Of a stretch of 40,376 nucleotides of DNA, positions 7,173 through 24,773 are shown piece by piece (the stretch's first letter is position 1; each line of letters opens with the position of its first letter). The stretch spans positions 1 to 40,376 of the forward strand of contig JAFIEO010000043.1 of assembly GCA_020832445.1 (NCBI GenBank). Direction: 5' to 3'. Both the position numbers and the translations under genes were made by a program. Below the pieces are notes generated by a model. It was not told the origin of the DNA. It made no database searches and was given only the letters and a program-made list of their open reading frames with translations. This DNA is from Paracoccaceae bacterium. GTDB lineage: Bacteria; Pseudomonadota; Alphaproteobacteria; Rhodobacterales; Rhodobacteraceae.

Positions 7173-7572
7173 GGGTGTTTGCGGCGTTCTTGGGCAGGCG
7201 AGTGCCTGACACCGGATAAAGCCTGTATGCCCGCAGCATATTTGACTGCGTGTCACGCGTGCGCACAGCATTTATATGCGATTGCCGCAATGCGCGGCTG
7301 TGCAGCGCCATTGGGCCAGTTGCAGGGATACGGCCCTGCAAGGCAAACATACCCGGAATGGAAGTGATCCGTGGCTGCCGCATAATCTGCGGTTTGCAGA
7401 CGTTGCTTGCGCAGTAAACGACTGCCCCCCTCAAGACTTTCGGCACAATTCTGCACGATGACACCCCTAGCATAGGGGATGATGGCGCGTATCCGCGTGT
7501 GTCAGCCGGACATGGGCCACGCCACAGGAACAAAGACAAAAACAATAACCAAAACCACAGAGAGGATTGGAA
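7173..7572. other. 400-base non-coding stretch before the first ABC importer operon
   Basis: No convincing gene is seen here: short open frames on both strands lack ribosome-binding sites and family features. It holds a small hairpin after the TRAP gene (CAGGC 7195-7199 / GCCTG 7204-7208), an inverted repeat GCACAGC (7263-7269) / GCTGTGC (7297-7303) enclosing the near-palindrome ATTGC-C-GCAAT (7281-7291), and the striking palindrome at 7464-7478. From about 7528 the leader becomes A-rich up to the AGAGGA ribosome-binding site (7561-7566). It is best read as the promoter and control region of the importer operon. Confidence 0.6.
7464..7478. promoter_or_regulatory. Palindromic candidate operator CCCCTA-GCA-TAGGGG
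   Basis: CCCCTA (7464-7469) and TAGGGG (7473-7478) are perfect reverse complements around GCA. The site lies about 95 bases before the importer binding-protein gene. With a three-base spacer it is more like a dimeric repressor/activator site than a terminator, because no T-run follows. No matching regulator gene adjoins this operon. Confidence 0.5.
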
Positions 7573-9237
7573 ATGACCGTTTCGAAATCAATAGAAAGCA
7601 TGCAATTTGCTTCAATAGGCCGCAGGGCACTGCTCGGGGCCTCTGTCGGGGTATGCGCCCTGATCGGGGCCAATATGCTTTTCGCGCAAACACCCCCGGA
7701 AACGCCCACGGGGCAGGTGGTTGTCGGGCTGTCTCAGGAACCGACCGCGTTTAACCCGTTGATGGCGGGGATTGAAGTCGATGAAACGATCTGGATGCAG
7801 ATCTATTCGCCGCTTTGGTATTCCGGCCCCGATGGAACATTGCTGCCCGAACTGGCCGCAGAAATCCCCATCACTGAAAATGGCGGCATTTCCCAGGACG
7901 GGCTGACCTGGACTGTCCGCCTGCGCGACGATGTAACCTGGCATGACGGAACACCCTTCACAGCCGAGGACGTTAAATTTTCGTTAGAGTTGATTAACAA
8001 CCCCGATTTCCGCGCAGGCAACCGTATGGGTCACGAACTGATCGAAGAAATCACAGTGACCAACCCGCATGAGATTACATGGACCATGCGCGAACCCTAT
8101 GCGCCCTATCTGGCCTTGCTGGCTGCAACCTATATGGTGCCGCGCCACATCATCGAAGCCGCTGACGATCCCCATACCGCGCTTGCCACTGCCCCTGTGG
8201 GCACCGGTCCCTTCACCTGGGGCGCGCGGGCGTCCGGCGACAGTATTACCTTGAACGCCAATGAAGATTTCTTCGGTGACGGCCCTTATCTGGAACGTGC
8301 GATCTTTCGCTACATCCCCGAGCAGACAGCCCTTTATGCGCAATTTCGTTCAGGCCAGCTTGATGCGACAATCGGAAGCGGTATTCCCGCGAACTATTTC
8401 GCCGAGGCACAGGATTTGCCCGGTCTGGTGGTCGAGGCCGTGGCAAACCCGTCATTGGAAATTGTGATGCCGAACCTTGAACATCCTGCCTTGCAGGACG
8501 TGGCCGTGCGCCGCGCGCTGTTCAGCGCAATCGATTCCGAGGCCATTATCGAGGCGATCTATTATGATCTGCATCGCCCCAATGTGTCCTTCGCCCCGCG
8601 CGAAAGCTGGGCCTATAACGATGCGCTGGCCCCGCATGTCTTTGACATTGACGAGGCAAACCGCCTGCTGGATGAAGCGGGGTGGGAAATGGGTGCGGCC
8701 AATGTGCGCGAAAAAGATGGCGTGCGGCTGGCATTCGACATTTCAACCACCACGGGCAATGCGTTGCGCGAACAGGCCCAACAGCTGATGATAGAAACAT
8801 GGCGGGCCATCGGCGCGCAGGTGTCCATCAATAATATGCCTGCGGCCGTGATCTGGGGTGATTTCTACCGCTTGTCACAGTTTGACACGCTGCTGGTCGG
8901 CACCGCGTTCCGCACTGGCATGGACCCCGACCCGTCCAACCGGTTCCTAAGCACGGCAATTCCCGCGCAGGGCGGTGCAGGCGCAAACTACATGCAATGG
9001 CAAAACACAGAAGCCGACGCGCTGCTGCAAGAAGGCATTGTCACCTTCGACATGGACCGTCGCCGCGAAATCTATCACCGCCTGCAAGAGATTGCCCGCG
9101 ACGAACTGCCGATCATTCCAATCTATCAGTATCAGCTTGTCGAAGGCCGCAAGGAAGGGCTGGAAGGATATGTTCCCAACATCAATGCGCGGCATAACAG
9201 CTGGAACATGCGTGAATGGTACTGGGCGCAGGACTGA
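7573..9237 (+). CDS. ABC transporter substrate-binding protein, peptide family (SBP family 5)
   Basis: A 554-residue periplasmic binding protein of the DppA/OppA type, which captures peptides or other organic solutes for import. The N-terminus has a twin-arginine-like leader (SIGRRALLGASVG, hydrophobic core, probable cleavage at LFA-Q). The mature part shows VVVGLSQEPTAFNPL, LRDDVTWHDGTPFTAEDVKFSL and a C-terminal DELPIIPIYQYQ region, all family hallmarks. The ATG at 7573 is chosen because AGAGGA ends seven bases before it; a TTG two codons earlier is unlikely. It heads a tight five-gene importer operon. The protein is clearly paralogous to the one encoded at 33618-35285, sharing GLSQEPT, PFTAEDVKF, LREQAQQ and a conserved PAAVIWG block. 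Confidence 0.95.
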   Translation: MTVSKSIESMQFASIGRRALLGASVGVCALIGANMLFAQTPPETPTGQVVVGLSQEPTAFNPLMAGIEVDETIWMQIYSPLWYSGPDGTLLPELAAEIPITENGGISQDGLTWTVRLRDDVTWHDGTPFTAEDVKFSLELINNPDFRAGNRMGHELIEEITVTNPHEITWTMREPYAPYLALLAATYMVPRHIIEAADDPHTALATAPVGTGPFTWGARASGDSITLNANEDFFGDGPYLERAIFRYIPEQTALYAQFRSGQLDATIGSGIPANYFAEAQDLPGLVVEAVANPSLEIVMPNLEHPALQDVAVRRALFSAIDSEAIIEAIYYDLHRPNVSFAPRESWAYNDALAPHVFDIDEANRLLDEAGWEMGAANVREKDGVRLAFDISTTTGNALREQAQQLMIETWRAIGAQVSINNMPAAVIWGDFYRLSQFDTLLVGTAFRTGMDPDPSNRFLSTAIPAQGGAGANYMQWQNTEADALLQEGIVTFDMDRRREIYHRLQEIARDELPIIPIYQYQLVEGRKEGLEGYVPNINARHNSWNMREWYWAQD

Positions 9238-9268
9238 TCCCGCGCAAGACTGACAAAAGGACCCGCCC

Positions 9269-10225
9269 ATGACCAGATTTCTAATCGGACGACTAGGCCA
9301 ATCTTTACTACTGCTGTGGATCGTGTCGGTAGTCGGATTTGCAATACTGCATCTGGCACCGGGCGGGCCCATGTCGCAATTCGCCGAATCCGGCAACATG
9401 ACGCAGGCCGACATGGACCGCATGGCCGAACAACTGGGCCTGAACCGCCCCCTGCCGGTCCAGTATGCGCAGTGGCTAACCAACATCGTCGCGGGCGACT
9501 GGGGCGTGTCCTACCGTGATCAGCAGCCGGTGCTGCGCATAATCTTTTCGCATCTCGGGGCAACCTTTGAACTGATGCTGACCTCTACCGTGATTGCGAT
9601 ATTCATCGGGGTATGGGTCGGCGTTCTGGGGGCTGTGTGGCGTTATTCGTTGTTCGACAGCGTTGCCACGATTTTTGCCATGGTTGCCCTGTCAATTCCT
9701 ACCTTCTGGTTCGGTCTGGTGGTCATCTGGTATTTTTCCATCGAGTTGGGCTGGCTGCCCGCGGGCAGCCGCATGACACCGGGCGACGGGTCGTTTGCGA
9801 ACAGGTTTCATCACCTGATCGGCCCTGCGCTGGTGCTGGCGCTTGTCTCGACCGCGATATGGAGTCGCTACATGCGTTCATCCATGCTTGATGTCATCAA
9901 TCAGGATTACATCCGCACCGCCAGATCCAAGGGCATATCGGAATGGCGCATCCTGACGCGGCACGCGCTGCGCAATGCGCTTTTGCCGATGATCACCATT
10001 CTGGGCCTGCAACTGCCTAACCTGCTAAGTGGGGCGCTGGTCACCGAAACGGTCTTTTCATGGCCGGGAATGGGGCGGCTGTTTCTCGATTCAATCAATT
10101 ACCGCGACTATCCGACAGTGATGGGAATTCTGATGTTCACAGCAATTCTGGTGCTTATCGGCAATCTGATTGCAGATATCCTGTATGGGCTGGCCGATCC
10201 GCGCATCGGGGGGCGCGCAAGATGA
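9269..10225 (+). CDS. ABC transporter permease, DppB/OppB-type
   Basis: A 318-residue inner-membrane permease with about six transmembrane segments. It begins with the family N-terminus (FLIGRLGQSLLLLWIVSVVGFAILHLAPGGP) and carries the cytoplasmic EAA loop that docks on the ATPase (DYIRTARSKGISEWRILTRHALRNALLPM), followed by SGALVTETVFSWPGMG. AAAAGGA lies just before the ATG. It overlaps the next permease gene by four bases (ATGA), so the two are translated together as the heterodimeric channel. Its counterpart in the second importer is at 32585-33535. Confidence 0.95.
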   Translation: MTRFLIGRLGQSLLLLWIVSVVGFAILHLAPGGPMSQFAESGNMTQADMDRMAEQLGLNRPLPVQYAQWLTNIVAGDWGVSYRDQQPVLRIIFSHLGATFELMLTSTVIAIFIGVWVGVLGAVWRYSLFDSVATIFAMVALSIPTFWFGLVVIWYFSIELGWLPAGSRMTPGDGSFANRFHHLIGPALVLALVSTAIWSRYMRSSMLDVINQDYIRTARSKGISEWRILTRHALRNALLPMITILGLQLPNLLSGALVTETVFSWPGMGRLFLDSINYRDYPTVMGILMFTAILVLIGNLIADILYGLADPRIGGRAR

Positions 10226-11106
10226 GCAATGCAACCCTTGCCCCTGCGGCCCCGCGCATTCGCCTTTTTCAAAGCCCCGCCCTGCGCCGGTTCCTGCGGC
10301 ACCGGCTGGCCGTCATCGGGACAATCACTATTCTGACAATGGTGTTGCTGGTCGTCATCGGACCTTGGCTGATGCCATTCGAGCCGACATCGACCAATAT
10401 CCGCAACCGGTTTCTGCCCCCTTTTGACAGCACACATCTGCTGGGCACCGACCCCTTGGGGCGTGATACGTTGACGCGCCTTCTGCACGCAGGCCGGATA
10501 TCATTGGCGGTGGGGTTTGCCGTGATGATCCTGAGCATGGCCATCGGCATTTTTGTTGGCACTGTCGCGGGCTTTTACGGGGGCGCATTGGGGGCTGCGC
10601 TGATGCGGTTTGTCGATGCAATGCTGTGTTTCCCACCTATTTTCCTGCTGCTGGCAATTTCGGCGCTGATCAACCCTTCGGTGATTTCAATTATCATCCT
10701 GATCTCTGCCGCGTCATGGATGGAAATTGCCCGCGTGGTCGAGGCGCAGGTGCGATCGTTGAAAGAGCGCGACTACACCGTCGCCGCCGAGGCATTGGGC
10801 GCGCGTGATCGCCGCATCATCTTGCGTGAAATCCTGCCCAATGCGGTCGCGCCCATCGTGGTTGCGGCAACCCTGAATGTGGCCAATGCTATTCTTGCTG
10901 AATCCTATATCAGTTTTCTGGGGTTCGGCGTTCAACCGCCGACCCCCAGCTGGGGCAATATGTTGCAGGATGCGCAAGGGTATCTGCGATCTGCGCCGTG
11001 GCTTGCAATCATTCCCGGCATCGCAATCACGCTTGCTGTAACCAGTTTCAACTTTATCGGGGACGGGCTGCGTGACGCACTGGACCCGCGAATGGAAAAC
11101 AGATGA
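10222..11106 (+). CDS. ABC transporter permease, DppC/OppC-type
   Basis: A 294-residue permease of the DppC class. A cytoplasmic N-terminal stretch (SPALRRFLRHRLAVIG) precedes the first membrane helix, then HLLGTDPLGRDTLTRLLHAGRISLAVG and the EAA loop near ERDYTVAAEALGARDRRIILREILPNA. The C-terminus FIGDGLRDALDPR is typical. The true start is the ATG that overlaps the previous stop (ATGA at 10222-10225); a longer frame from 10060 reads through the upstream permease. It partners the DppB-type protein and overlaps the following ATPase gene by four bases. The counterpart at 31673-32551 ends with the same FIGDGLRDALD. Confidence 0.95.
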   Translation: MSNATLAPAAPRIRLFQSPALRRFLRHRLAVIGTITILTMVLLVVIGPWLMPFEPTSTNIRNRFLPPFDSTHLLGTDPLGRDTLTRLLHAGRISLAVGFAVMILSMAIGIFVGTVAGFYGGALGAALMRFVDAMLCFPPIFLLLAISALINPSVISIIILISAASWMEIARVVEAQVRSLKERDYTVAAEALGARDRRIILREILPNAVAPIVVAATLNVANAILAESYISFLGFGVQPPTPSWGNMLQDAQGYLRSAPWLAIIPGIAITLAVTSFNFIGDGLRDALDPRMENR

Positions 11107-12146
11107 GCACAGCTGAACCCAAACCCGCCGCGCCCCCTGTGTTGCAGGTCAGCGATCTTGAAATCACCTTCAACACGCGGGCAGGGCCTGTCCGCGCTGT
11201 CCGGGATGTCAATTTCCAGATTGCGAAGGGGGAAACCCTTGCGATTGTCGGCGAAAGCGGTTCGGGCAAATCGGTCACCAGCCTTGCCATGTTGCGGCTG
11301 CTGCCCGGTGCGCCGTTTTGCAAGGTGTCCGGTCAGGTGTTGCTGTCGCATGAGGGCCGGCAGACCGATCTTGTCACCTGCTCTGCTGACGACATGCGTG
11401 CAATCCGCGGGCGTCATGCCTCTATCGTGTTTCAGGAACCGATGACCTCGCTTAATCCTGTGCACACGGCCGGAACACAGATTGCGGAATCCATCCGGCG
11501 GCATATAGGCCTTGGGCAGCGCGCGGCCATGGAACGCGCGATCGAATTGCTGGATCTGGTCGGCATTCCCGACCCGCGCCGCCGTGCCGCCAGTTTCCCG
11601 CATGAAATGTCGGGCGGTATGCGGCAACGGGTGATGATTGCGCTGGCACTGGCCTGTGACCCCAGCCTGCTGATTGCGGATGAACCGACGACTGCGCTGG
11701 ATGTGACCATTCAGGCGCAGATCATCGAGTTGATGAAAGACATTCAGGCGCGCACCGATCTGGCAATCATCTTCATTACCCACAATCTGGGTGTCGTGGC
11801 AGATGTAGCCGACAAGGTTATGGTCATGTATGCAGGCTCTCCCGTGGAAACTGCCCCTGTGGCTGATCTGTTCGAACGCCCCTTGATGCCTTATACGCGC
11901 GGGCTGTTGCAATCGGTGCCGCGGATCACGTTTTCCGCATCGCGAGGCCAGCCGTTACCGGCAATCAGGGGCACTGTGCCCAGCCCGCTGGCACTGCCAC
12001 AGGGGTGCAGCTTTGGCCCGCGCTGCGACTGGTTTCTGTCCGGCACCTGCGATGCAGATACACCCCTGCTGCAACCTGTGCAGCGCGGGCATGACGTGCG
12101 CTGCCACCGGTGCGAAACAATCCTGAAGGAGCTGGCAATTCAATGA
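11103..12146 (+). CDS. ABC transporter ATP-binding protein, DppD/OppD-type
   Basis: A 347-residue ATPase that powers the importer. Walker A is GESGSGKS at residues 50-57, the signature is MSGGMRQRV, and Walker [14 protein letters not shown]; a His switch lies in FITHNLGVV. The C-terminal oligopeptide/dipeptide extension contains the cysteine-rich segment [10 protein letters not shown]...GTCDAD...VRCHRC, a pattern linked in some DppD proteins to an iron-sulfur cluster (family knowledge). ATGA overlaps exist at both ends, placing it firmly in the operon. The second importer in this window has a fused ATPase that lacks this cysteine segment. Confidence 0.95.
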
Positions 12147-13147
12147 CGTCACCTCTGGTAGAACTTAACAATATCTCGCGTCATTTTCCGGGCAAGCGCA
12201 CCAGCCTGTTCGGCCCGCCCGAAACGGTGCGCGCGGTTGATGGCCTGTCGTTACGGATCAACCGTGGCGAAGTGCTAAGTCTGGTCGGCGAAAGCGGATC
12301 AGGCAAAAGCACGGTGGGCAAGGCGCTGATGCGCCTGACCGACCTGACCGCAGGCGAGATTGTCTTTGACGGGCAGGAAATCAGCCGCTTTGACCGCGCC
12401 CGCATGCGCCCGTTGCGCCGCCGTATCCAGATGGTGTTTCAGGACCCCTATGCCTCGTTGAACCCCAAGGCCAGCGTGGCCGACACACTGGCCGCGCCGC
12501 TTGAAATCCATGAACCGGATTTGACGCGCGCCCAGCGGCAGGACCGGGTTGCCGATATTTTGGAAACGGTTGGTCTGTCGCCCGATTTTGCTGCCCGCTA
12601 CCCGCACGAGTTTTCAGGTGGCCAGCGCCAGCGTATCGGATTGGCGCGCGCGCTGATCACCAAGCCCGATCTGCTTGTCGCGGACGAGCCGATCTCGGCG
12701 CTGGACGTGTCCGTGCAGGCACAGGTCATCAATCTGCTGCTGGAGTTGCAGCAGCGGCTGGGGCTGACAATCCTGTTCATCTCGCATGATCTGTCGGTGG
12801 TCAGCCACATCTCGGACCGGATTGCGGTGATGTATCTGGGCCGCGTGGTAGAGGTGGCACCAGCGGAAGCCCTGTTCCGCGCGCCGCGTCATCCCTACAC
12901 CGAAGCATTGCTGTCGGCCATTCCCGAACCCGATATGCGTGCGCGGCGCAAGCGTATGATCCTGAAAGGCGATATTCCCAGCCCTGTGAACCCCCCGTCA
13001 GGGTGCAGTTTCCGCACGCGCTGCCCGTATGCGATTGCGGAATGCGCCAATGCACGCCCGCTGCTTGAACCGGCTGGTCCGGGCCATCTGAAGGCCTGCA
13101 TCCGTGATGATCTGGATTTGTCCCCTGCGTTGACCTCGGATACATGA
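12143..13147 (+). CDS. ABC transporter ATP-binding protein, DppF/OppF-type
   Basis: A 334-residue second ATPase, forming the asymmetric nucleotide-binding pair with the DppD-type protein. Walker [10 protein letters not shown] is at residues 49-57, the signature is [13 protein letters not shown] and Walker B LLVADEPISALDV. The characteristic GPPETVRAVDGLSL opening and the C-terminal GCSFRTRCPYAIAECANARPLLE extension identify the F subunit. The start is the ATG overlapping the previous stop (12143-12146); an earlier ATG at 12110 lies within the upstream gene. It overlaps the next gene, a MOSC-reductase-Rieske fusion, by four bases, which ties that enzyme to the transporter. Confidence 0.95.
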   Translation: MTSPLVELNNISRHFPGKRTSLFGPPETVRAVDGLSLRINRGEVLSLVGESGSGKSTVGKALMRLTDLTAGEIVFDGQEISRFDRARMRPLRRRIQMVFQDPYASLNPKASVADTLAAPLEIHEPDLTRAQRQDRVADILETVGLSPDFAARYPHEFSGGQRQRIGLARALITKPDLLVADEPISALDVSVQAQVINLLLELQQRLGLTILFISHDLSVVSHISDRIAVMYLGRVVEVAPAEALFRAPRHPYTEALLSAIPEPDMRARRKRMILKGDIPSPVNPPSGCSFRTRCPYAIAECANARPLLEPAGPGHLKACIRDDLDLSPALTSDT

Positions 13148-15351
13148 AACCTGCATTTGAAGGGGCCTGCGTAACCGGCCTGTGGCGCTATCCGGTCAGC
13201 AGTCTGGCGGGCGAGCGTTGCGCAACATTGCAACTTGACCCCGACGGCCCCCAAGGCGACCGTACGCACGGATTGTTCGACGCCGCAACCAGCGCGCCCG
13301 CCTATCCTGTGCGCGATCCGTCATGGAATGATGCACCAGCGTTGATGGCCAGGGCGGGGCGCGATGGCCCCTGTGTGTCGCGTGATGGCCATGTCTGGCA
13401 TGACATAGATAGCGCGGCGGCCAGTGACCTGTTGTCGGCCCATTTTGACAGGCCGGTTCTGGCGCGGCGCTACGGCGCAGCGCTGCCCGATGGGACAGCG
13501 GCGAAAGCGCGGTATTCCATGGCCCCCGTGCATCTGATCAGCCGTCAGGCTTTGGCGCGACTGGCAGAACTTCTGCCCGACAGCCAGATAGACCTGCGGC
13601 GCTTTCGTCCCAATATTGTGGTTGATCTGCCCAACGCCCCTGCGGGTATGCCTGAATACAATCTGCTGGGTCAAAGCTTTCGCATCGGGGATGTGACCTT
13701 GCGCGGCGAGGCGCCTTGCGGGCGGTGCGGGTTCACCACCTTGCAACAAGATGATCTGCCCCGCGACCCTGACGTGCTGCGCATGCTGACCAGACATTTT
13801 CAGCGCAACCTTGGGATTTACTGCAAGGTTGAAATCTCGGGTGAAATCCATATAGCGCAGGCGTTACGCGTGCCGCGCATGCACCCTGTCGTGATCGTGG
13901 GGGGCGGTCAGGCGGGCGCAACGACTGCGCGCACGCTGCGGGAACTGGGCTACAGGGAACCGCTGGTCCTGATAGGGGATGAAACGCACCCGCCATATGA
14001 GCGCCCACAACTGTCAAAATCCCTGTTCCGGCCAGAACCGCTGACCGGTGCGATGACGCGTGCGCAGGCGCAAGACCTGAATATAGACCTGAAGACTGGC
14101 AGCCGTGTCGCAGCGCTGGACGCGGATGCACGCACCCTTACGCTGGCGGATGGCAGTTGCCTTGACTATGCCCGACTGGTGATCGCGACAGGCGGACAGG
14201 TGCGCAATCCCGTCGGGTTGTCCGGTCCACGGGTGCAAACCCTGCGCACAAGCGCGGATGCACAGGCGATTGCCGCATTGGCCCCGCGCAGGTTGATGAT
14301 CCTTGGTGGTGGATGGATCGCGATGGAAGCTGCTGCCGCCGCCCGCGCGGTCGGAATTGCGGTCACGGTTCTTGTGCGGGGGCCTGCCCTTGCGCACCGG
14401 ATTTTGCCTGATCAGGTGTCAGACCATCTGGCCGCGCTGCACCGTGCCAATGGCGTTGATCTGCGGCTTGGGGCTACGCCGCGCTTCAGCATGGATGGCG
14501 CTTGCGTGCGCGCACAGGTTGATGGCGCGACCATCACGGCCGATCTGCTGCTGGTTGCGGCTGGCATTACACCGGATGTCATGCTGGGGCAACAGGCGGG
14601 CATTGCGTCTGGCGACGGTATTGCAACGGATGGGGCGGGCGCTACATCGCAGCCGCTGATTTACGCGGTGGGTGACGTGGCGCTGCAACCGGTCGCGGAC
14701 ACGCGCATGCGCATCGAAAGTTGGCAGAATGCGAATGATCAGGCGCGCGCCTGCGCGCAGGCCATGATGGGCATGCCACTGCCTGAGCGCGCACCGCTGC
14801 GGTTCTGGTCCGACCAGTTCGGCAAGCGTATACAGATCGCGGGTCTGCCGCGACCGGATGCCCCCTTGTGCACAGCACTGCGGGATGCGCAGCGGCCATT
14901 CTGGAACTATGGCAGCTTCGCGATTGGCATCGACAGACCGCAGGATATTCATCAATTTGACGCCAACCCACCGCCTGCACGCGCGAACAGACAGCCCCCG
15001 CAGCCACAGGGGCCGGGGCGTGCAATTATTGCCAGCCATGCAGTGCGAGAGGGCGCGCTGATCCGTATCAATGATCCGGTGCATGGCGCGCTTGCGCTTA
15101 CGCGGCTCGGGGGGCGGGTTCATGCGGTTGCAGATGCCTGCCCCCATGCCGTCGCGTCCCTGTCCGACGGGTTTGTGGCGAATGGCCATATTGTGTGCCC
15201 TTTGCATTTCGCCGAATTTGACCTGACAGATGGCACCCCCCGCAACGCACCCGCCGGATGCGGCAGGCTGGCATGCTGGCCCGTCAGTGAAGCGGGCGGT
15301 GAAATCCTGATCCATGACATAGACAACGGACCAGCCCGCACCGGCGTGTAA
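13144..15351 (+). CDS. MOSC domain / FAD-NAD(P)H reductase / Rieske triple-fusion oxidoreductase
   Basis: A 735-residue three-part enzyme. Residues 1-240 form a MOSC (molybdenum-cofactor-binding) unit: the N-terminal barrel (VTGLWRYPVSSLAGE, GPQGDR) and core with RFRPNIVVD and the cysteine pair PC192-GR-C195 followed by FTTLQQDD and NLGIYCKV. Residues 247-605 are a ferredoxin-reductase-type flavoprotein: FAD loop GGGQAG 253-258, ERPQLSKS 287-294, VIATGG, NAD(P) loop LGGGWIAME 387-395 and AVGDVA 508-513. After a proline-rich linker (609-624) comes a Rieske domain with C666-P-H668 and C685-P-L-H688. The parts imply NAD(P)H to FAD to Fe-S to Mo electron flow within one chain. The YPVKS motif usual in MOSC-N reads YPVSS. 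ATGA overlap with the ATPase gene makes it the last cistron of the importer operon. Family knowledge (mARC, YcbX) suggests reduction of N-hydroxylated or N-oxide substrates; hydroxylation is the alternative. The substrate is unknown. Confidence 0.92.
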   Translation: MKPAFEGACVTGLWRYPVSSLAGERCATLQLDPDGPQGDRTHGLFDAATSAPAYPVRDPSWNDAPALMARAGRDGPCVSRDGHVWHDIDSAAASDLLSAHFDRPVLARRYGAALPDGTAAKARYSMAPVHLISRQALARLAELLPDSQIDLRRFRPNIVVDLPNAPAGMPEYNLLGQSFRIGDVTLRGEAPCGRCGFTTLQQDDLPRDPDVLRMLTRHFQRNLGIYCKVEISGEIHIAQALRVPRMHPVVIVGGGQAGATTARTLRELGYREPLVLIGDETHPPYERPQLSKSLFRPEPLTGAMTRAQAQDLNIDLKTGSRVAALDADARTLTLADGSCLDYARLVIATGGQVRNPVGLSGPRVQTLRTSADAQAIAALAPRRLMILGGGWIAMEAAAAARAVGIAVTVLVRGPALAHRILPDQVSDHLAALHRANGVDLRLGATPRFSMDGACVRAQVDGATITADLLLVAAGITPDVMLGQQAGIASGDGIATDGAGATSQPLIYAVGDVALQPVADTRMRIESWQNANDQARACAQAMMGMPLPERAPLRFWSDQFGKRIQIAGLPRPDAPLCTALRDAQRPFWNYGSFAIGIDRPQDIHQFDANPPPARANRQPPQPQGPGRAIIASHAVREGALIRINDPVHGALALTRLGGRVHAVADACPHAVASLSDGFVANGHIVCPLHFAEFDLTDGTPRNAPAGCGRLACWPVSEAGGEILIHDIDNGPARTGV

Positions 15352-15384: not shown

Positions 15385-15405
15385 GCAGACTTAAACTCTG
15401 TCTGC
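15385..15405. terminator. Hairpin at the convergent end of the MOSC-fusion and Lrp genes
   Basis: GCAGAC (15385-15390) pairs with GTCTGC (15400-15405) across nine bases that include the Lrp stop codon. A second, wider pairing TGCCGC...GCGGCA encloses the preceding bases (15351-15387). The gap between the convergent genes is only 39 bases, and no T-run is present, so termination here is probable from position rather than from sequence strength. Confidence 0.35.
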
Positions 15406-15882
15406 GAAAAGGCGTGTCAGCGGGAACTGGGTCTTTGCAAAAGGTGTTTTGATCACCACAAAACTGAAATATTTGTCGACCCCGATTTCACGGTCAATCA
15501 GTGCTTCAATGATGTTCTGGTAGTCGGCAATTCCGGCCGTGACGAATTTTGCAAGGTAATCATACCCGCCCGATACCAGATGACATTCGATACAACTGTC
15601 AACCTTTTCCAACGCTTCCTGAAATCTGGCGAAATCAATCTGGCGATGGTTCTTTAACGTGAATTCGGTAAAGACCGTCAGCGTCTCGCCCAGTTTGCTG
15701 ACATCGATCTGCGCGGAATAGCCGGAAATAAAACCGGCCTGTTGCAGCTTCTTTACCCGCATCAGACAGGGCGAAGGTGACAGCGCGACCAGATCTGCAA
15801 GTTCGACGTTGGTAATCCGGCCATTGCGTTGAAGTTCGGCCAGAATTTTCACATCGATGCGGTCTAGTTTGTGGCCACTCAT
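15391..15882 (-). CDS. Lrp/AsnC-family transcriptional regulator
   Basis: A 163-residue Lrp-type regulator: DNA-binding domain at the N-terminus (LDRIDVKILAELQRNGRITNVELADLVALSPSPCLMRVKKLQQAGFI) and a RAM ligand-sensing domain with GGYDYLAKFVTAGIADYQNII. These proteins sense amino acids and often control a neighbouring divergent gene. The start at 15882 is preceded by AGAAGGAA about ten bases upstream; a longer frame from 15924 lacks such a site. It is divergent from a DAO-family oxidase at 16033, so it likely controls that gene, and perhaps the oxidase-dehydrogenase cluster, in response to an amino acid or its derivative. Confidence 0.94.
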   Translation of the reverse strand: MSGHKLDRIDVKILAELQRNGRITNVELADLVALSPSPCLMRVKKLQQAGFISGYSAQIDVSKLGETLTVFTEFTLKNHRQIDFARFQEALEKVDSCIECHLVSGGYDYLAKFVTAGIADYQNIIEALIDREIGVDKYFSFVVIKTPFAKTQFPLTRLFADRV

Positions 15883-15949
15883 CGGGCGTTCGTTCCTTCT
15901 GAAATGGGGGCAACATCCGGGCATGCTGCAAAGTAGGTCTGCTACAAAG

Positions 15950-16032: not shown

Positions 16033-17358
16033 ATGCCCGCTCCGCTACTGGAAATCAACACCAAACCTGATTTGCCGTCATATGCTGATTGCGTTGTGAT
16101 AGGCGGCGGTATCGTGGGGGTCTGCGCGGCCTATTGGCTTGCGCGCGCGGGTCAGAATGTTGTGCTTTTGGAAAAAGGGCGTGTCGGGTGTGAACAATCC
16201 AGCCGCAACTGGGGGTGGTGCAGGCAGCAAAACCGCGATGCGCGCGAATTGCCGTTGTCGACCGCCAGCTTGCGGCTGTGGGAACAGATCGGCGAGGATT
16301 TGGGGCCCGAAACCGGCTTTTCGCGCTGCGGGTTGCTGTATCTGTCAGATAACGAGGCAGAGCTGGAAGGCTGGGAAAAATGGGGCCAGTTCGCGCGCGG
16401 ACAAGGTGTCGACACGCGTATGCTGACGGGCACCAGGGCCACGGAAATGGCACAGGCCACGGGCAGGACATGGCGCGGCGGCGTCTGGTCGCCCAGCGAC
16501 GGGGTCGCCGATACATCGCGCGCGGTGCCCGCCATCGCGCAGGGCGTTGAAAAACATGGCGGGCGCGTCATCCAGTTCTGTGCGGCGCGCGGTGTGGAAC
16601 TGGCCGCAGGCCGTGTGGCAGGTGTCGTGACCGAACGCGGCACCATTCGCACGCCCAATGTGGTGGTTGCGGGCGGGGCGTGGGCGTCCAGTTTCATGTA
16701 TCAACTTGCCGTGCGGTTTCCGCAGGCGTCTGTGCGCAGTTCTATCCTGTCGGTCAAACCGGGGGGCGAAGGGCTGCCAGCGGCGCTGCATACTGCCGGT
16801 GTTTCTGTCACGCGCCGCGCGGATGGCGGGCATACGCTGGCCATATCGGGGTCAGCCGCTGTCGATCCAACGCCGGGAATGCTGTATGGTGCCCGACATT
16901 TCCTGCCGATGTTTGCAAAGCGGTGGCGGTCGCTGGTGGCTGGCGGGGCGCAGGGCTGGCGCGCGGGGTTCGAGACGCGCCGCATCTGGGCACTGGACCG
17001 CGAAACCCCGATGGAACGGGTGCGCGTTCTTGACCCTAAGCCGTCGAAGCGGTTGATTGCGAACACTTTGCAGCGCGCGCGTGCGCTGCTGCCAGCGCTG
17101 CGCGACATTCCGGTTCAGGCGGCATGGGCGGGCTATGTTGACAGCACGCCTGACGGGGTGCCGGTGATTGATGCGGATGTGGGTATTCCGGGGCTGGTGC
17201 TGGCCGCAGGTCTTTCGGGGCACGGGTTTGGTATCGGGCCGGGGGTGGGCCATCTGGTCGCCGATATGGTGGTGGGGCGCACCACCCTGACTGAAACCGC
17301 GCAATACCGTCTGAAGCGCTTTGACAAAAGCCAGTGGGGCAAGGTCGCCGAATTCTAA
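16033..17358 (+). CDS. FAD-dependent amine/D-amino-acid oxidoreductase (DAO family)
   Basis: A 441-residue DAO-superfamily flavoenzyme (relatives: DadA, sarcosine and glycine oxidase, opine oxidase). The FAD-binding loop CVVIGGGIVGVCAAYWLA lies near residues 20-37. It is followed by CEQSSRNWGWCRQQNRD, characteristic of a proteobacterial subgroup of amine oxidases, and by the C-terminal GLSGHGFGIGPGVGHLVADMV flavin contact. The expected reaction is oxidative C-N bond cleavage of an amino acid or N-substituted amine to an imine and then a keto acid or aldehyde. AGGATAG precedes the start. The divergent Lrp gene and the downstream aldehyde dehydrogenase suggest that an aldehyde product is oxidised onward. 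The substrate cannot be assigned. Confidence 0.9.
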   Translation: MPAPLLEINTKPDLPSYADCVVIGGGIVGVCAAYWLARAGQNVVLLEKGRVGCEQSSRNWGWCRQQNRDARELPLSTASLRLWEQIGEDLGPETGFSRCGLLYLSDNEAELEGWEKWGQFARGQGVDTRMLTGTRATEMAQATGRTWRGGVWSPSDGVADTSRAVPAIAQGVEKHGGRVIQFCAARGVELAAGRVAGVVTERGTIRTPNVVVAGGAWASSFMYQLAVRFPQASVRSSILSVKPGGEGLPAALHTAGVSVTRRADGGHTLAISGSAAVDPTPGMLYGARHFLPMFAKRWRSLVAGGAQGWRAGFETRRIWALDRETPMERVRVLDPKPSKRLIANTLQRARALLPALRDIPVQAAWAGYVDSTPDGVPVIDADVGIPGLVLAAGLSGHGFGIGPGVGHLVADMVVGRTTLTETAQYRLKRFDKSQWGKVAEF

Positions 17359-17485
17359 TCCCCCCGCCGCTGGCGCGGCCATGACAGATACCCGACAAGA
17401 TAGCGGAGGCATCGGCGGCTTTCCTGCGTTCGGGTGCATGTGCTGCAAACTCAGCCCTATCCGAACACATGTCAAAGAGGATGCC

Positions 17486-18949
17486 ATGAACAAGTCTTTT
17501 TCACCTGATGATCTGACACTGCGGCCCGCCCATTTCATTGGCGGTGATTATGTTGTGGATAAGGGGCGGCTGGATGTTCTTGCCCCCTCGGACGGGCGTT
17601 GGCTGGCCCGCATTCCGGTGGCTGATGCAGACATGGTGGACCGCGCGGTTGCGGCGGCGCGCACTGCGCTGAAGCAGTCGGGCTGGGCCGGGTTGCGCCC
17701 GCGAGAGCGGATACGCGCGCTGCACCGCTGGGCCGACCTGATAGAGGCCGAGGCCGACACGCTGGCCCGGCTGGAGGCTGTCTGTTCAACCCGCCCTGTT
17801 GCGCATGCGGCCACCGGCGATGTTATGGTCACAGCCGAACAAATTCGCTTCTTTGCCGAGTTTGCGGACAAGGAGGGTGGCGATCTTGTCCCCGCGGGGA
17901 CAGGCAGTCTGGGTTTCATTTCGTCACAGCCTTATGGCGTGATCGGCGCCATCGCACCGTGGAACTTTCCCATTTCTATGGCGGGGTGGAAGCTGGGGCC
18001 TGCGCTGGCGGCGGGCAATGCGGTCGTGCTGAAACCGTCCGAGATGACGCCCTTCAGCGCCCTTTACATGGCGGAACTTTCTGTGCGGGCGGGTGTTCCG
18101 GCGGGGCTGATCAATGTGGTGCTGGGCGACGGGCCGGTGACGGGCACAGCGATCACCGGCCATCCGGGGATCGACAAGGTGTCTTTCACCGGCTCTACCC
18201 GCGCGGGGGCGGCAATCATGGAAAACATCGCGCGCACCGGCATCAAACCCATGACGCTGGAGTTGGGCGGCAAAAGCCCCATGGTTGTGTTTGATGATGC
18301 CGATCTGGATATGACGGCGGATTGTCTGGAACGCGGCATCCTGTCCAATGCGGGGCAGGCATGTATCGCGGGGTCGCGCATGATCGTGCAGCGCGCCATT
18401 GCGGATGACTTGGCGGACCGCTTGGCCGCGCGCTTTGCCCGCCACCGACCGGCAGCGACATGGGCGGCCAAGGCCGGATTTTGCCCCATCATATCAGAGG
18501 TGCAACTGAAGCGCATTCAGTCCATTGTCACCGCTGCCGCAGAACAGGGCGGGCAAATCGTCACGGGCGGCGCGCGCTTCGATCACGAGGGCAGCTATTA
18601 CCAACCGACACTTATCCGCGATGTCACCGCCACCAGCCCTGCCGTCACCGAGGAAATATTTGGCCCCGTTGCAACATTCCAGACCTTCGACACCGAACAA
18701 GAGGCGATGGAACTGGCCAGCCATCCCACCTATGGTTTGTGCGCGGGGCTGTTTACCCGCGATCTGTCGCGCGCCATGCGCCTGACAGACCAGCTGGAGG
18801 CAGGGACCGTCTGGGTGAACCGCTATGGACGCTCGCGCGATCATATCCTGCCGACGGGTGGCTGGAAGGCGTCGGGGCTTGGCAAGGATCTGGGACGAGA
18901 GGCATATGTAGCAAACCGGCGCACGAAATCCGTGCTGATTGATCTGTAA
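17486..18949 (+). CDS. NAD(P)-dependent aldehyde dehydrogenase
   Basis: A 487-residue ALDH-superfamily enzyme oxidising an aldehyde to its acid. Catalytic residues are in place: N160 in APWNFP, E259 in LELGG and C293 in NAGQACIAGSR, with the cofactor loop FTGSTRAG near 234-241. AAAGAGGA lies before the ATG at 17486; the earlier frame from 17321 runs out of the oxidase gene and is not family-like. It follows the DAO-type oxidase and precedes a decarboxylating-type dehydrogenase and a GabD-type enzyme, so it probably handles an amino-aldehyde from amine oxidation (compare PuuC in putrescine breakdown). The region VCSTRPVAHAATGDV departs from the common GKP motif, suggesting an unusual substrate. 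Confidence 0.92.
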   Translation: MNKSFSPDDLTLRPAHFIGGDYVVDKGRLDVLAPSDGRWLARIPVADADMVDRAVAAARTALKQSGWAGLRPRERIRALHRWADLIEAEADTLARLEAVCSTRPVAHAATGDVMVTAEQIRFFAEFADKEGGDLVPAGTGSLGFISSQPYGVIGAIAPWNFPISMAGWKLGPALAAGNAVVLKPSEMTPFSALYMAELSVRAGVPAGLINVVLGDGPVTGTAITGHPGIDKVSFTGSTRAGAAIMENIARTGIKPMTLELGGKSPMVVFDDADLDMTADCLERGILSNAGQACIAGSRMIVQRAIADDLADRLAARFARHRPAATWAAKAGFCPIISEVQLKRIQSIVTAAAEQGGQIVTGGARFDHEGSYYQPTLIRDVTATSPAVTEEIFGPVATFQTFDTEQEAMELASHPTYGLCAGLFTRDLSRAMRLTDQLEAGTVWVNRYGRSRDHILPTGGWKASGLGKDLGREAYVANRRTKSVLIDL

Positions 18950-18967
18950 ATGACAAGGAATACCCGA

Positions 18968-20014
18968 ATGAAGACCCACAAGATTGCACTTATACCGGGT
19001 GACGGTATCGGCGCTGACGTGACCGGTGCTGCCATGACAGTTCTGGATGCCGCCGCAGATGGCTTCGGCTTTTCGCTGGAAACCGAAAGTTTTCCGTGGT
19101 CCTGCGACTGGTATCTGCAACATGGCCGGATGATGCCAGAGGACGGCATTGATATCTTGCGCGGCTTTGACGCGATCTTGCTGGGTGCGGTCGGCTGGCC
19201 TGCGACGGTGCCGGATTCAGTATCGTTGCACGGGCTTTTGCTGCCGATCCGCAAAGCCTTTGATCAATACGCCAATATCCGCCCGCATCGCCTGCTGCCA
19301 GGGGTCGAGGGGCCGCTGAAATCGGCAGGGTTCGATATTCTGTGCATCCGCGAAAACACCGAAGGGGAATATTCCGGTGCCGGGGGCCGGGTGCATCAGG
19401 GCCGCGACAACGAAGTCGCGATCGAAACAGCAATCTTCACCCGCCAGGGCGTGGAGCGGATCATCCGTTTCGGCTTTGATCAGGCGCGGGCACGGCGCAA
19501 GCACCTGACGTCGGTTACCAAGTCGAATGCACAGAAACATTCGATGGTGTTCTGGGACGAAATCACGCGCATGGTTGCCGCCGATTATCCCGATGTCACC
19601 GTCAGCCATATGCATATCGACGCGATGGCCGCCAAGATGGTCATGGCGCCGCAGGATCTTGACGTAATCGTGGCCTCGAACCTGTTCGGGGACATCCTGA
19701 CAGATCTGGGTGCCGCGATTCAGGGCGGGCTGGGGTTTGCGGCCTCTGCCAATATCTGCCCGGACCGCAGCAACCCCTCGATGTTCGAGCCGGTTCACGG
19801 ATCTGCCCCCGATATTGCGGGGCGCGACATTGCCAACCCGATTGCCACGATATGGTCGGGTGCCATGATGCTGGACCATCTGGGCGAGGGGGCGGCTGCG
19901 GCGGCCGTTTTGCGCGCGGTTGAAACAACCTGCGCGCAAGGCATTGGTCTGCGCCCCGGTTCGCACAGCACCGGCCAGATCACCCAAGCCATCCTGTCTG
20001 CCCTGAAGGTGTAA
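18968..20014 (+). CDS. Tartrate/D-malate dehydrogenase-type enzyme (isocitrate/isopropylmalate dehydrogenase family)
   Basis: A 348-residue beta-decarboxylating dehydrogenase of the TtuC/DmlA branch. Hallmarks are IALIPGDGIGADV at the N-terminus, LGAVGWPATVPDSVSLHGLLLPIRKAFDQYANIRP, IRENTEGEYSGAGGR, VTKSNA and SNLFGDILTDLGAAIQGGLG with the metal-binding aspartates, then FEPVHGSAPDIAG. The GWP...VPD segment is typical of D-malate/tartrate enzymes rather than LeuB. It would oxidise and decarboxylate a 2-hydroxy diacid (D-malate, tartrate or similar) with NAD. The ATG at 18968 follows AAGGAA with good spacing; the ATG at 18950 abuts the previous stop but has no such site. It lies three bases before gabD. 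Confidence 0.88.
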   Translation: MKTHKIALIPGDGIGADVTGAAMTVLDAAADGFGFSLETESFPWSCDWYLQHGRMMPEDGIDILRGFDAILLGAVGWPATVPDSVSLHGLLLPIRKAFDQYANIRPHRLLPGVEGPLKSAGFDILCIRENTEGEYSGAGGRVHQGRDNEVAIETAIFTRQGVERIIRFGFDQARARRKHLTSVTKSNAQKHSMVFWDEITRMVAADYPDVTVSHMHIDAMAAKMVMAPQDLDVIVASNLFGDILTDLGAAIQGGLGFAASANICPDRSNPSMFEPVHGSAPDIAGRDIANPIATIWSGAMMLDHLGEGAAAAAVLRAVETTCAQGIGLRPGSHSTGQITQAILSALKV

Positions 20015-20017
20015 GCC

Positions 20018-21454
20018 ATGAAACTTGATGATGCAGGTCTTTTCCGGCAATCGGCCCTGATTGATGGCGCGTGGCTGGACCGTGCGGATATGCCGGTGAC
20101 CGACCCGTCCACGGGGCAGGTTATCGGCAACATACCCGACTGCACAGCCGCCGAAACCACACGCGCCATCAGGGCCGCCGAACGCGCAATGGTTGACTGG
20201 CGCGCGCGCCCGCATGCCGAACGCGCGGACCTGCTGTTGCGGTGGTATCAGCTGATACTGGACAACACCGAAGATCTGGCCCTGTTGCTGACCACCGAGC
20301 AGGGCAAGCCCCTGACCGAAGCGCGCGGCGAAGTGGCATATGGTGCCGCATTCGTGCGCTGGTTCGCCGAAGAAGCGCGGCGCATCAACGGCAAGATCAT
20401 TCCGTCTCCCAGCCGTGACAAGAAGATATTGGCGATGAAAGAACCGGTCGGCGTGTGTGCCATCATCACGCCGTGGAATTTTCCTATTGCGATGATCACC
20501 CGCAAGGTTGCGCCGGGGCTGGCGGCAGGCTGCACAATGGTTATCAAACCTTCGGATTTTACGCCCTATTCAGCGCTGGCACTGGCTGTTCTGGCCGCGC
20601 GCGCGGGCATACCCGACGGGGTTCTGAACATTCTGACCGGCCGTCCTGAAACCATTGGCGCGACGCTGACGGCCAGTCCGGTGGTGCGCAAACTGTCCTT
20701 CACCGGATCAACCCGCGTCGGTGCGCTGCTGGCAGAGCAATGCGCCCCAACGTTGAAAAAGCTGTCATTGGAACTGGGGGGTAACGCGCCGTTCATTGTG
20801 TTCGATGATGCCGATCTGGACGCGGCTGTCGAAGGGGCGATGGTGTCGAAATTCCGCAATGGCGGGCAAACCTGCGTTTGCGCGAACCGTATCCTTGTTC
20901 AATCGGGCATTCATGATGCCTTCGTATCGGCGCTGGCCAGGCGTGTGGACGCGCTGTCGGTCGGCCCCGGCACCAAAGCGGGTGTTTCCATCGGACCCAT
21001 GATAAATGCCGCCGCCGTTGACAAAATACGCACCCATGTCGCCGACGCGGTAAGCAAGGGCGCAACGCCCGCGACCCGCGCGCGCGATTTGCCTGACCAA
21101 TACGCCGATCCGGTTGTGCTGACGGGTGCCACGCCCCGCATGCTTCTGGCGGCCGAGGAAACATTCGGACCTGTCGCGCCGGTTTTCCGTTTTGACACAG
21201 AGGAGGAGGCGCTGAGTCTGGCCAATGGCACACCTTTCGGACTGGCGGCCTATTTCTACACCCGCGATATGGCGCGTGCCTTTCGTGTGGGCGAAGCGCT
21301 GGAATTTGGCATGGTCGGGCTGAACACGGGACTGGTCAGTCATGATGTCGCGCCATTTGGCGGGGTCAAAGCGTCCGGGCTGGGCCGTGAAGGTGCGCAA
21401 GAGGGGATAGAGGAATATCTTGAAACAAAGGCGTTTCATCTGGGCGGGCTATAG
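20018..21454 (+). CDS. gabD: NAD(P)-dependent succinate-semialdehyde dehydrogenase (GabD-type)
   Basis: A 478-residue ALDH of the GabD class, which converts succinate semialdehyde to succinate and feeds GABA and polyamine nitrogen breakdown into the TCA cycle. N154 lies in TPWNFP, E252 in LELGGN and C286 in GGQTCVCANR. The second cysteine two residues on (C288) is the pair used as a redox switch in known GabD enzymes. FTGSTRVG and the PFGGVKASGLGREGAQEGIEEYLE C-terminus are also class-typical. The gene begins three bases after the preceding stop, with AAGGTG upstream. Substrate assignment is by similarity; glutarate semialdehyde is an alternative. Confidence 0.9.
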   Translation: MKLDDAGLFRQSALIDGAWLDRADMPVTDPSTGQVIGNIPDCTAAETTRAIRAAERAMVDWRARPHAERADLLLRWYQLILDNTEDLALLLTTEQGKPLTEARGEVAYGAAFVRWFAEEARRINGKIIPSPSRDKKILAMKEPVGVCAIITPWNFPIAMITRKVAPGLAAGCTMVIKPSDFTPYSALALAVLAARAGIPDGVLNILTGRPETIGATLTASPVVRKLSFTGSTRVGALLAEQCAPTLKKLSLELGGNAPFIVFDDADLDAAVEGAMVSKFRNGGQTCVCANRILVQSGIHDAFVSALARRVDALSVGPGTKAGVSIGPMINAAAVDKIRTHVADAVSKGATPATRARDLPDQYADPVVLTGATPRMLLAAEETFGPVAPVFRFDTEEEALSLANGTPFGLAAYFYTRDMARAFRVGEALEFGMVGLNTGLVSHDVAPFGGVKASGLGREGAQEGIEEYLETKAFHLGGL

Positions 21455-21591: not shown

Positions 21592-22509
21592 ATGACAAAC
21601 CAATTCGCAACCGAAGCAAGTATAGCAGGGCTTGATGCTGCCGCTGATCTGGATCTTGATGCCTATAGGGTGCATCTACAGCCATTGACGCCGGATCAGC
21701 GGGACCGTCTGTATCAGATGACGCTTGGTGTGAAATGGCCGCATCGGATTGAGGATCTGGATCTGACAATCTTGGTGGGGCGTGGTCTGATTGGCATTGA
21801 CGAAATCGGACGGCCATTATGCACCGCAATGGCGTTTCCGATGGGCGATGATTTCGCCACCATCGGGATGATGACAACCACGCCGCGGTTGCAGATGATG
21901 GGGGCGGGGCGCTGGCTTCTTCAGGCGATGCTGAAAGAATGCCAGGGGCGCGATCTGCGCCTGAACGCCACACGCGCGGGTTTTGCCCTTTATCAGGAAG
22001 CGGGTTTCATTCCTGTTGTGCCGGTCAAGCAGATGCAGGGTATCGCACGCGCTGTTGAAACCCCGCCAGATGTGTCCGGCCTTGTCATCCGGGCGCTGAC
22101 AGATGACGATCACAGTGCCATATTTGCCCTCGACAAGCACGCATATGGCGCGTGTCGCCAACATCTGCTGACGCGTCTGCTGGGCGCGGGTTCGGGAACA
22201 ATCGCGCTGCGCGACGGGCAGGCGGTGGGTTTTGCCCTTCGCCGGCGGTTTGGCAAAGGGGTCGTGATCGGTCCCGTTGTCGCCTGCGATGATGCATCGG
22301 CGATGCAGCTGATTGCCCCGCTGATCCATCAGGCAGAAGGTCAGTTCACGCGTATGGATACACCGGTTGAAAGCGCCGCCTTGCGCAGTTTTCTGGATGC
22401 GGCGGGCCTGCGGTATTTCGATACCGTAACCGAGATGCGCATCGGGCCGCATCGTCGGGCGACCACGGGCCCGGTAACCTATGGATTGGCTGCCCATTCC
22501 TTTGGGTAA
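21592..22509 (+). CDS. GNAT-family N-acetyltransferase with two tandem domains
   Basis: A 305-residue protein. Residues about 25-150 form a GNAT domain with the acetyl-CoA loop LQMMGAGRWLLQAML (Q-x-x-G-x-G) and the usual ALYQEAGF end. Residues about 165-290 form a second, divergent GNAT-like domain with VIGPVVA and a DAAGLR segment, as in the YitH-type two-domain group. It is expected to acetylate a small amine or amino acid. A second protein of the same build is encoded at 26365-27189, so the locus carries a paralogous pair. The ribosome-binding site (AGGAAG) is about 15 bases away, rather far. The gene stands alone between gabD and a convergent oxidase gene. Confidence 0.85.
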   Translation: MTNQFATEASIAGLDAAADLDLDAYRVHLQPLTPDQRDRLYQMTLGVKWPHRIEDLDLTILVGRGLIGIDEIGRPLCTAMAFPMGDDFATIGMMTTTPRLQMMGAGRWLLQAMLKECQGRDLRLNATRAGFALYQEAGFIPVVPVKQMQGIARAVETPPDVSGLVIRALTDDDHSAIFALDKHAYGACRQHLLTRLLGAGSGTIALRDGQAVGFALRRRFGKGVVIGPVVACDDASAMQLIAPLIHQAEGQFTRMDTPVESAALRSFLDAAGLRYFDTVTEMRIGPHRRATTGPVTYGLAAHSFG

Positions 22510-22595
22510 AGGGGTTGGGGTTTCGCGGAACCGCCAGCAACGCTTTAAGCCGCTGTTCTGGCGCAGTTTCGAACCGGAAAAACCTATCAAATTTT

Positions 22596-23897: not shown

Positions 23898-23902
23898 GGC
23901 AG

Positions 23903-24723: not shown

Positions 24724-24773
24724 ACGCACTGCGATGATGGCATTATAGCCAATCAAACGAAGGAATCCCCCTG

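Follow-up and report, generated by a model that had tools for sequence, protein, structure and literature searches.

The stretch of DNA analysed here (the window; 40,376 nucleotides from a Paracoccaceae bacterium, contig JAFIEO010000043.1) carries a gene encoding a fusion of MOSC, flavin adenine dinucleotide (FAD) reductase and Rieske parts, and both gene and protein are named MFR. The gene lies on the forward strand at 13144–15351, from the ATG at 13144 to the stop codon ending at 15351, encodes 735 amino acids and starts within an ATGA overlap of 4 bases with the stop codon of the upstream importer ATPase. The frame and its length are exactly as described in an earlier note made from the letters of the window, and the three domains that the note had assigned to this one chain were found by Pfam, all above the curated cut-offs. 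The MOSC domain (13519–13854; residues 126–237, within residues 1–240 where it was expected) includes the RRFRPN motif (residues 152–157) and C195, and matched with E = 2.1e-15 and a score of 57.2 against a cut-off of 22.7 bits. The FAD/NAD(P) reductase module (13885–14745; residues 248–534) covered positions 2–291 of the 291 positions of Pyr_redox_2 (E = 1.3e-52), and the Rieske [2Fe-2S] domain (15088–15255; residues 649–704) matched with E = 1.9e-11. The Rieske ligands C666, H668, C685 and H688, as well as C192 and C195, were located at the positions claimed. MOSC_N, a fourth family named in the note, was represented by an N-terminal stretch (13168–13278; residues 9–45) with the motif WRYPVSSLAGE that includes Ser19; it scored 16.5 bits in the window protein, below the 25-bit cut-off, and was matched at E ≤ 0.01 in 7 of the 9 aligned MFR proteins, the window's counted, with a best value of 5.5e-7. 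The reductase module had also been called complete, which is correct for the full Pyr_redox_2 match but not for the C-terminal part, where a Reductase_C remnant (14803–14865; residues 554–574) aligned over just 21 of the 85 Pfam positions (2–22) with 22.6 against 25 bits. The closest solved relatives of the flavin module are BphA4 ferredoxin reductases (PDB 4h4v, E = 5.5e-54). It also resembles HcaD, a reductase of aromatic-ring dioxygenases, with 266 bits against the model's cut-off of 450 bits, and the equivalog cut-offs of HcaD and AndAa were both unreached. For the Rieske part, the best solved relative is CarAc, the ferredoxin of carbazole dioxygenase (1vck, E = 1.8e-10).

Eight intact homologues of the window protein with the same architecture and 47–80% identity were found. 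The nine intact proteins (alignment A2) thus comprise those of the window, the loci L001, L002 and L003, the genomes G017, G295, G1386 and G1372, and plasmid pB of Ensifer adhaerens. A scan of 84,980 species, with one genome per species, returned 11 loci, 3 of which carry the whole fusion, namely L001 from a metagenome-assembled genome labelled Halomonas (80% identity) and L002 and L003 from two Sulfitobacter (66–67%). The remaining 8 matched the flavin part, the match extending to the Rieske part in L004, L005 and L006; in the five of these 8 that were read (L004–L008), the reductase frame begins at the flavin part and has no fused MOSC. Whole-genome searches contributed the MFR of G017, G295, G1386 and G1372. 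Among 72,556 plasmid records, two had one place covering at least 80% of the query, Ensifer adhaerens pB and Sinorhizobium meliloti AK57 pSymA. In the latter (L047, 13980–16227) MFR is split over three frames, by decay or by sequencing error, and was therefore left out of the nine; a FolD-type gene at this locus is likewise split, over two frames. The L001 contig (NZ_REBQ01000137.1), binned as Halomonas, encodes importer proteins 89–96% identical and an MFR 80% identical to those of the window, and the presence in a Halomonas bin of an importer–MFR segment so close to that of the Rhodobacterales-type window reflects either mis-binning or transfer.

All nine intact proteins, the window's counted, matched MOSC, Pyr_redox_2 and Rieske in Pfam at E ≤ 0.01. 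The ratios of nonsynonymous to synonymous substitution rates (dN/dS) between the window and L001, whose proteins are 80% identical, were 0.155 for the MOSC, 0.112 for the FAD and 0.109 for the Rieske part, and 0.180 for the linker at residues 571–630. The corresponding values between L002 and L003 were 0.164, 0.195 and 0.179, with 0.355 for the linker, and between the window and L002 the domains gave 0.15–0.16 and the linker 0.426. All three domains are under purifying selection, which is weaker in the linker, and this stretch of about 60 residues is also the least conserved part of the protein, with 27–67% identity to the window. Because all three parts are under purifying selection and all nine proteins have the three Pfam domains, the MFR fusion is genuine and neither a chance product nor a frame artefact.

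The fusion is rare. In the censuses, a fusion was called at E ≤ 1e-90; the genome samples overlap, so the counts are not independent and are not to be added, and the best 2 candidates per genome (best 3 in the census of the G295 family) were scored, by which some fusions may be missed. On this basis MFR was present in at least 3 of 390 genomes of the order (the own genome counted), in at least 1 of 385 genomes of the class and at least 1 of 398 of the phylum (the own genome alone in both), and in at least 3 of 345 genomes of the family of G295. It was present in 2 of 62 genomes of the genus of G452; G452 and L003, like G1173 and L002, were treated as the same loci and each pair was counted once. 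The own genome belongs to the family of G452, and NCBI assigns Sulfitobacter, the genus of L002 and L003, to the Rhodobacterales. Two of 100 relatives, the own genome (G000) and G017, had a full-length match among the matches listed. From viral contigs, 35 stretches matched a pattern and none of them encoded an MFR relative.

The residues expected for cofactor binding were compared across the nine proteins. C195, R152–N157 (RRFRPN) and the four Rieske ligands C666, H668, C685 and H688 are invariant in all of them. The earlier note had described C192 and C195 as a conserved pair, and this was borne out for C195 but only in part for C192, which is present in eight of the nine and replaced by alanine in G1372. 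Six MOSC proteins that do not belong to the MFR family (five from plasmids, one from the own genome) all have a cysteine at the C195 position and none has one at the C192 position. C195 (codon 13726–13728), the candidate Mo ligand, aligned with the second cysteine of the CSRC motif of human mARC1, albeit in a weak alignment (phmmer E = 0.048). By residue counting, this cysteine of mARC1 would be Cys273, the Mo ligand. A C273 is mentioned in PMC10637980, a 2023 review drawn on here, like the article PMC10489706, in excerpts. MoaC and MoeA_N, two families of molybdenum cofactor (Moco) synthesis, were found above cut-off in all four MFR genomes searched, the own genome counted. Besides MFR, the own genome encodes one further MOSC match, a protein of 249 residues. 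The coenzyme was approached through the NAD(P) fold, where the end of the second strand reads VLVRGP in the window. All nine proteins have R412, and the residue in front of it is V, A or L and in no case acidic. The stretch scored 45.4–46.1 bits with BphA4 chains having CRG, ARG or QRG at this place against 39.5 bits with 1d7y; the former are presumably BphA4 mutants switched from NADH to NADPH. Judged by these residues, MFR would more likely prefer NADPH over NADH.

The neighbouring genes of the window look like genes for amine import and catabolism. Directly upstream of MFR lies an Opp-type ABC importer (7567–13147, forward) made of a solute-binding protein, two permeases and two ATPases. 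MFR is followed by an Lrp/AsnC-type regulator on the reverse strand (15391–15924) and then on the forward strand by DAO1, an amine-oxidase-type flavoprotein of the DAO family (16033–17358; Pfam DAO E = 1e-72), and by aldehyde dehydrogenase, tartrate dehydrogenase-type (TDH) and succinate-semialdehyde dehydrogenase-type (SSADH) enzymes (17321–21454). The TDH call rests on TIGR02089 (559.8 against 470.4 bits) and the SSADH call on TIGR01780 (653.2 against 646.35 bits). The region 21592–29493 encodes a GNAT protein, DAO2 and a short protein (both on the reverse strand), an EutQ-like cupin, an M20 acetylornithine-deacetylase-like protein, a second GNAT protein (GNAT2), a class III aminotransferase and a GhrA-like reductase. 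Beyond these lie a second Opp-type ABC importer (31673–37056, reverse) and an XRE-cupin regulator together with the flavoprotein DAO3 (37277–39240, forward). A route from acetylated diamines to succinate through GNAT, DAO, aldehyde dehydrogenase, M20 deacetylase, aminotransferase and SSADH would fit these genes.

The gene context was then followed across the other loci. On its own strand, MFR lies closest to an importer gene in the window and in L001, with the overlap of 4 bases in both, and to DAO3 in L002 and L003, at gaps of 5 and 61 bases, respectively. Importer 2, DAO3, the cupin, M20, GNAT2, the aminotransferase and DAO1 surround MFR in 5/5 of L002, L003, G017, G295 and G1386, and the counterpart of importer 2 lies in these five in the same gene row as MFR. 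At L001, whose contig ends 2.8 kb after MFR, the first importer is present together with DAO1, DAO2 and an SSADH-type enzyme. Each of the nine other loci read has DAO-type frames no further than 25 kb from MFR. DAO-family matches number 16 in the own genome, three of which fall inside the 40-kb window where 0.16 would be expected by even spacing; within 25 kb of MFR there were 3 of the 19 matches of G017, 3 of 15 in each of G295 and G1386, and 2 of 23 in G1372. In the reverse control, a close relative of DAO3 (63–70% identity) was present in 5 of 295 family genomes, and of these G295 alone has MFR. In three of them (G385, G112 and G241), the 52–57 kb read contain DAO3 along with importer 2 and the XRE regulator, but no MFR. 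The MFR-less cluster of G112 also has the cupin, the aminotransferase, DAO2, aldehyde dehydrogenase, TDH and SSADH, and that of G385 most of these, while G179 has DAO3 without the importer. The absence of MFR holds genome-wide for G112 (order census, best 2 candidates scored) and for the stretches read in G385, G241 and G179. As importer/oxidase clusters exist without MFR, the amine cluster does not need it. MFR is probably an optional addition to the amine pathway, feeding it as an entry module or protecting it as a clean-up module, and would not be part of its core.

On balance, we favour the reading that MFR is a putative self-contained, NAD(P)H-driven reductase of N-O bonds of the mARC/YcbX kind that is accessory to amine catabolism. 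The supply of electrons from NAD(P)H by the protein itself, as the earlier note had proposed, is the natural reading of a MOSC domain with a conserved cysteine, an FAD/NAD(P) reductase and an Fe-S carrier in one chain. The note's other suggestion, hydroxylation of the substrate, is unsupported, since all MOSC proteins studied in vitro so far had N-reductive activity (PMC10637980, in the excerpts), and we saw no sign of hydroxylation. The fold suggests that the FAD of the BphA4-type module would be reduced by NAD(P)H, with NADPH the likelier donor. From there, single electrons would pass to the attached Rieske cluster, much as BphA4 hands electrons on to a Rieske ferredoxin that is a protein of its own. 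The Rieske domain would move between FAD and Mo on the variable linker of about 60 residues, and after swinging to the MOSC part could reduce the Mo held by C195. The Mo would then take the oxygen from an N-hydroxylated or N-oxide compound to give the amine and water. The gene context suggests that the substrate may be brought in by the Opp-type importer, and the amine, once unmasked, could be taken further by the enzymes encoded alongside, namely the DAO flavoproteins, the aldehyde dehydrogenases, the aminotransferase and the succinate-semialdehyde dehydrogenase.

Several observations weigh against this reading. Position 19 is a serine in 9/9 MFR proteins, where lysine is found in mARC1 (in a sub-threshold stretch), in the second MOSC protein of the own genome and in that of Aromatoleum; the remaining four of the six MOSC proteins outside the family have serine, and cofactor binding by MFR may therefore differ. 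The AlphaFold model, built on a 4-sequence alignment, had a mean predicted local distance difference test score (pLDDT) of 45.8 and a predicted template modelling score (pTM) of 0.42, too poor for distances between Rieske cluster, FAD and Mo. In G017, G295 and G1386, MFR is separated from the importer by genes for an aldehyde dehydrogenase and a cupin. In G1372, E. adhaerens and S. meliloti the neighbours of MFR differ, though DAO-type frames remain near; they include other ABC importers (in E. adhaerens of SBP_bac_8 type, in S. meliloti of betaine type), genes for hydantoinase A/B, or frames of DAO and GCV_T that look like a dimethylglycine dehydrogenase, accompanied by electron transfer flavoprotein (ETF) genes, PurU and FolD. 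These differing neighbours make a single substrate for all MFR proteins unlikely. Furthermore, the two DAO matches of G1372 that fall within 25 kb lie at 5.4 and about 22 kb from MFR, with a single one within 10 kb, and with 15–23 DAO genes per genome one DAO neighbour alone would mean little.

Given the recurrent DAO genes, MFR may alternatively assist these flavoproteins in the manner of an NAD(P)H peroxidase, its Mo site reducing the H2O2 which they release. Human mARC1 and mARC2 are reported to reduce H2O2 (excerpts of PMC10489706). The presence of DAO-type frames near MFR at every other locus read, the three of them in the window, and the optional occurrence of MFR in otherwise similar clusters, as could be the case for a protective enzyme, are consistent with such a role. 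However, DAO clusters lacking MFR exist in G385, G112 and G241, peroxide is presumably handled more cheaply by catalases, and the DAO frame of S. meliloti sits with ETF genes and hence may not release peroxide; we consider the peroxidase role unlikely. A comparably low probability is given to MFR being a general detoxifier of base analogues or of reactive by-products of the N-hydroxyl type, without a particular connection to the amine genes. The rare and patchy distribution fits an accessory detoxifier, and E. coli YcbX and YiiM act on 6-hydroxylaminopurine in detoxification (excerpts of PMC10637980), but the overlap with the importer in the window and L001 and the short gaps to DAO3 in L002 and L003 point to a dedicated role in a pathway.

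The nearest relatives of the flavin and Rieske halves, reductases of the BphA4/HcaD type and ferredoxins of the CarAc/toluene-dioxygenase type, would agree with a further alternative in which these halves donate electrons to a separate oxygenase (a Rieske oxygenase or a desaturase-type hydroxylase) and MOSC is a passenger or a regulator. In Pseudomonas gingeri (L004, 8714–11542), an unfused reductase and a small gene, which would be a Rieske ferredoxin since the query match there reaches residue 723, adjoin a 401-aa protein. This neighbour was considered as a Rieske oxygenase and rejected, as Pfam places it in the fatty-acid-desaturase family (FA_desaturase), and the arrangement suggests that this type of reductase may serve more than ring dioxygenases. 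A Rieske-oxygenase partner was sought by scanning 15 stretches for the C-x-H...C-x-x-H motif, an oxygenase elsewhere in the genomes not being sought, and apart from MFR the scan yielded no protein with this motif that would qualify as an oxygenase. It returned four further frames, of which three run antisense to genes of the window and the fourth belongs to the part by which the SSADH-type frame of G295 extends upstream. No desaturase was present among the window genes given to Pfam, the search for desaturases being confined to these. With MOSC fused in 9/9 proteins and under selection like the other parts, we regard a mere donor to an oxygenase as improbable. Far less probable still is that the MOSC part moves sulphur or Moco in the manner of Moco sulfurase, without catalytic Moco, and that the FAD and Rieske parts serve this step. 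MOSC domains do occur in Moco sulfurase (PMC10637980, in the excerpts), and Ser19 stands where some other MOSC proteins have lysine. Against it, a NifS-like domain is absent from the Pfam matches of the window protein, RRFRPN and the MOSC cysteine are kept in 9/9 proteins, and even the C-terminal domain of the sulfurase reduces N-O compounds (excerpts of PMC10637980).

Returning to the N-O reductase reading, MFR was compared with the known systems. The earlier note had contrasted it with YcbX as borrowing its reductase and with mARC as a set of separate proteins, and this contrast needs correction, since E. coli YcbX has a ferredoxin domain of its own and the YcbX proteins of Vibrionales combine a Mo-binding, an NAD(P)H/FAD and a [2Fe-2S] ferredoxin domain in a single polypeptide (PMC10637980, in the excerpts, citing Kozmin et al. 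2010); the one-chain principle is therefore not new. Vibrionales YcbX and MFR are alike in having a MOSC-type Mo domain, a flavin reductase and a [2Fe-2S] carrier in the order MOSC-FAD-Fe-S, but the carrier is a ferredoxin domain in the former (excerpts of PMC10637980) and a Rieske domain with a BphA4-family flavin module in MFR. Plant/spinach-type ferredoxin (Fer2) was absent among the 18 Pfam families listed for MFR at E ≤ 1. The flavin module of Vibrionales YcbX presumably has another fold (FNR). E. coli YcbX shares with MFR a MOSC domain with an attached [2Fe-2S] carrier; unlike MFR it has a spinach-type ferredoxin domain and depends on the external flavoprotein CysJ (excerpts of PMC10637980). 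mARC shares the conserved cysteine and the CxRC and FRPN motifs in the weak alignment mentioned above, and the proposed order of electron flow from NAD(P)H over FAD and a one-electron carrier to Mo is also that of mARC, cytochrome b5 and b5 reductase, which unlike MFR are separate proteins with a haem carrier; mARC and YcbX both get electrons from a flavoprotein via a one-electron carrier, and flavin and [2Fe-2S] domains are further noted for a YiiM-like protein (excerpts of PMC10637980).

Both electron-transfer modules of MFR are of the family kind of BphA4-BphA3, the reductase and Rieske ferredoxin of biphenyl dioxygenase; MFR differs by the fusion to MOSC, the cut-down C-terminal domain of the reductase and the lack of a Rieske oxygenase beside it. 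A class IIB Rieske dioxygenase system likewise encodes an oxygenase subunit, and the scan of 15 stretches found none near MFR. Five stand-alone MOSC proteins from plasmids (of Sinorhizobium americanum, Rhizobium sp., Pseudochrobactrum, Agrobacterium and Aromatoleum) are 34–40% identical to the MOSC half, with WRYPVSS in 4/5 and the C195 position kept in 5/5. Unlike MFR, they are encoded on their own, with a length of about 240 aa (in Aromatoleum 308 aa), and lack C192 in 5/5. On plasmid A of S. americanum (L076, 1–7699), the stand-alone MOSC gene ends a row near amine and amino-acid catabolism genes, the row consisting of an FAD-dependent oxidoreductase, an SDR, an aldehyde dehydrogenase, a proline racemase family protein and MOSC, with no fusion.

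What is new in MFR is the use of a BphA4-type reductase and a Rieske domain as the modules, together with a gene context that suggests a catabolic role. The word 'Rieske' does not occur in PMC10637980, and no paper on a MOSC-Rieske fusion was found by title or abstract in a literature that covers few subscription journals, in which two papers mention both MOSC domains and Rieske. A more specific proposal, which we put forward tentatively and hold to be possible rather than probable, is that MFR is a MOSC molybdoenzyme with a catabolic role on imported N-hydroxylated or N-oxide natural compounds, in which a Rieske domain of aromatic-dioxygenase origin is the direct donor to Mo. To our knowledge, in agreement with the literature searches, there is no earlier example of a catabolic MOSC molybdoenzyme or of a Rieske cluster donating directly to the Mo of a MOSC protein. 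What MOSC N-reductases act on in nature is an open question; the excerpts of PMC10489706 describe the physiological function of mARC as unknown, and PMC10637980 devotes a section to 'potential endogenous substrates' of these enzymes. Since MFR stands in an operon-like setting with an importer and amine-degrading enzymes, growth and importer-binding tests could give its substrate. An NAD(P)H-run enzyme in one chain would be a handy tool for N-O reduction, and MFR would demonstrate the repeated assembly of one and the same electron chain from different components.

Two particular substrates were considered and rejected. N-hydroxypipecolate had come into view as DAO2 and DAO3 resemble the pipecolate oxidase AmaA, but their scores were 177 and 130.9 bits against a cut-off of 600 bits. 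For the reduction of hydroxyguanidine in canavanine breakdown, 'hydroxyguanidine reductase' was not found in the literature among the matches listed.

Some further features of the window were recorded. Rfam and tRNA scans of it gave no matches, and a tandem-repeat scan found one short array at 40261–40295. The 40-kb window holds two Opp-type importers, and a relative of the BhcC-like 3-hydroxyaspartate aldolase (29585–30739, reverse; 622.8 against a 690-bit cut-off) adjoins the GhrA-like reductase and sits between the two halves of the amine cluster. The EutQ-like cupin (24774–25142) recurs near MFR in five loci with 57–66% identity and also in the MFR-less cluster of G112. The short protein beside DAO2 (23903–24598; 231 residues) had no Pfam match at E = 1e-10 and accompanies DAO2 in L001, L003, G017 and G1386.

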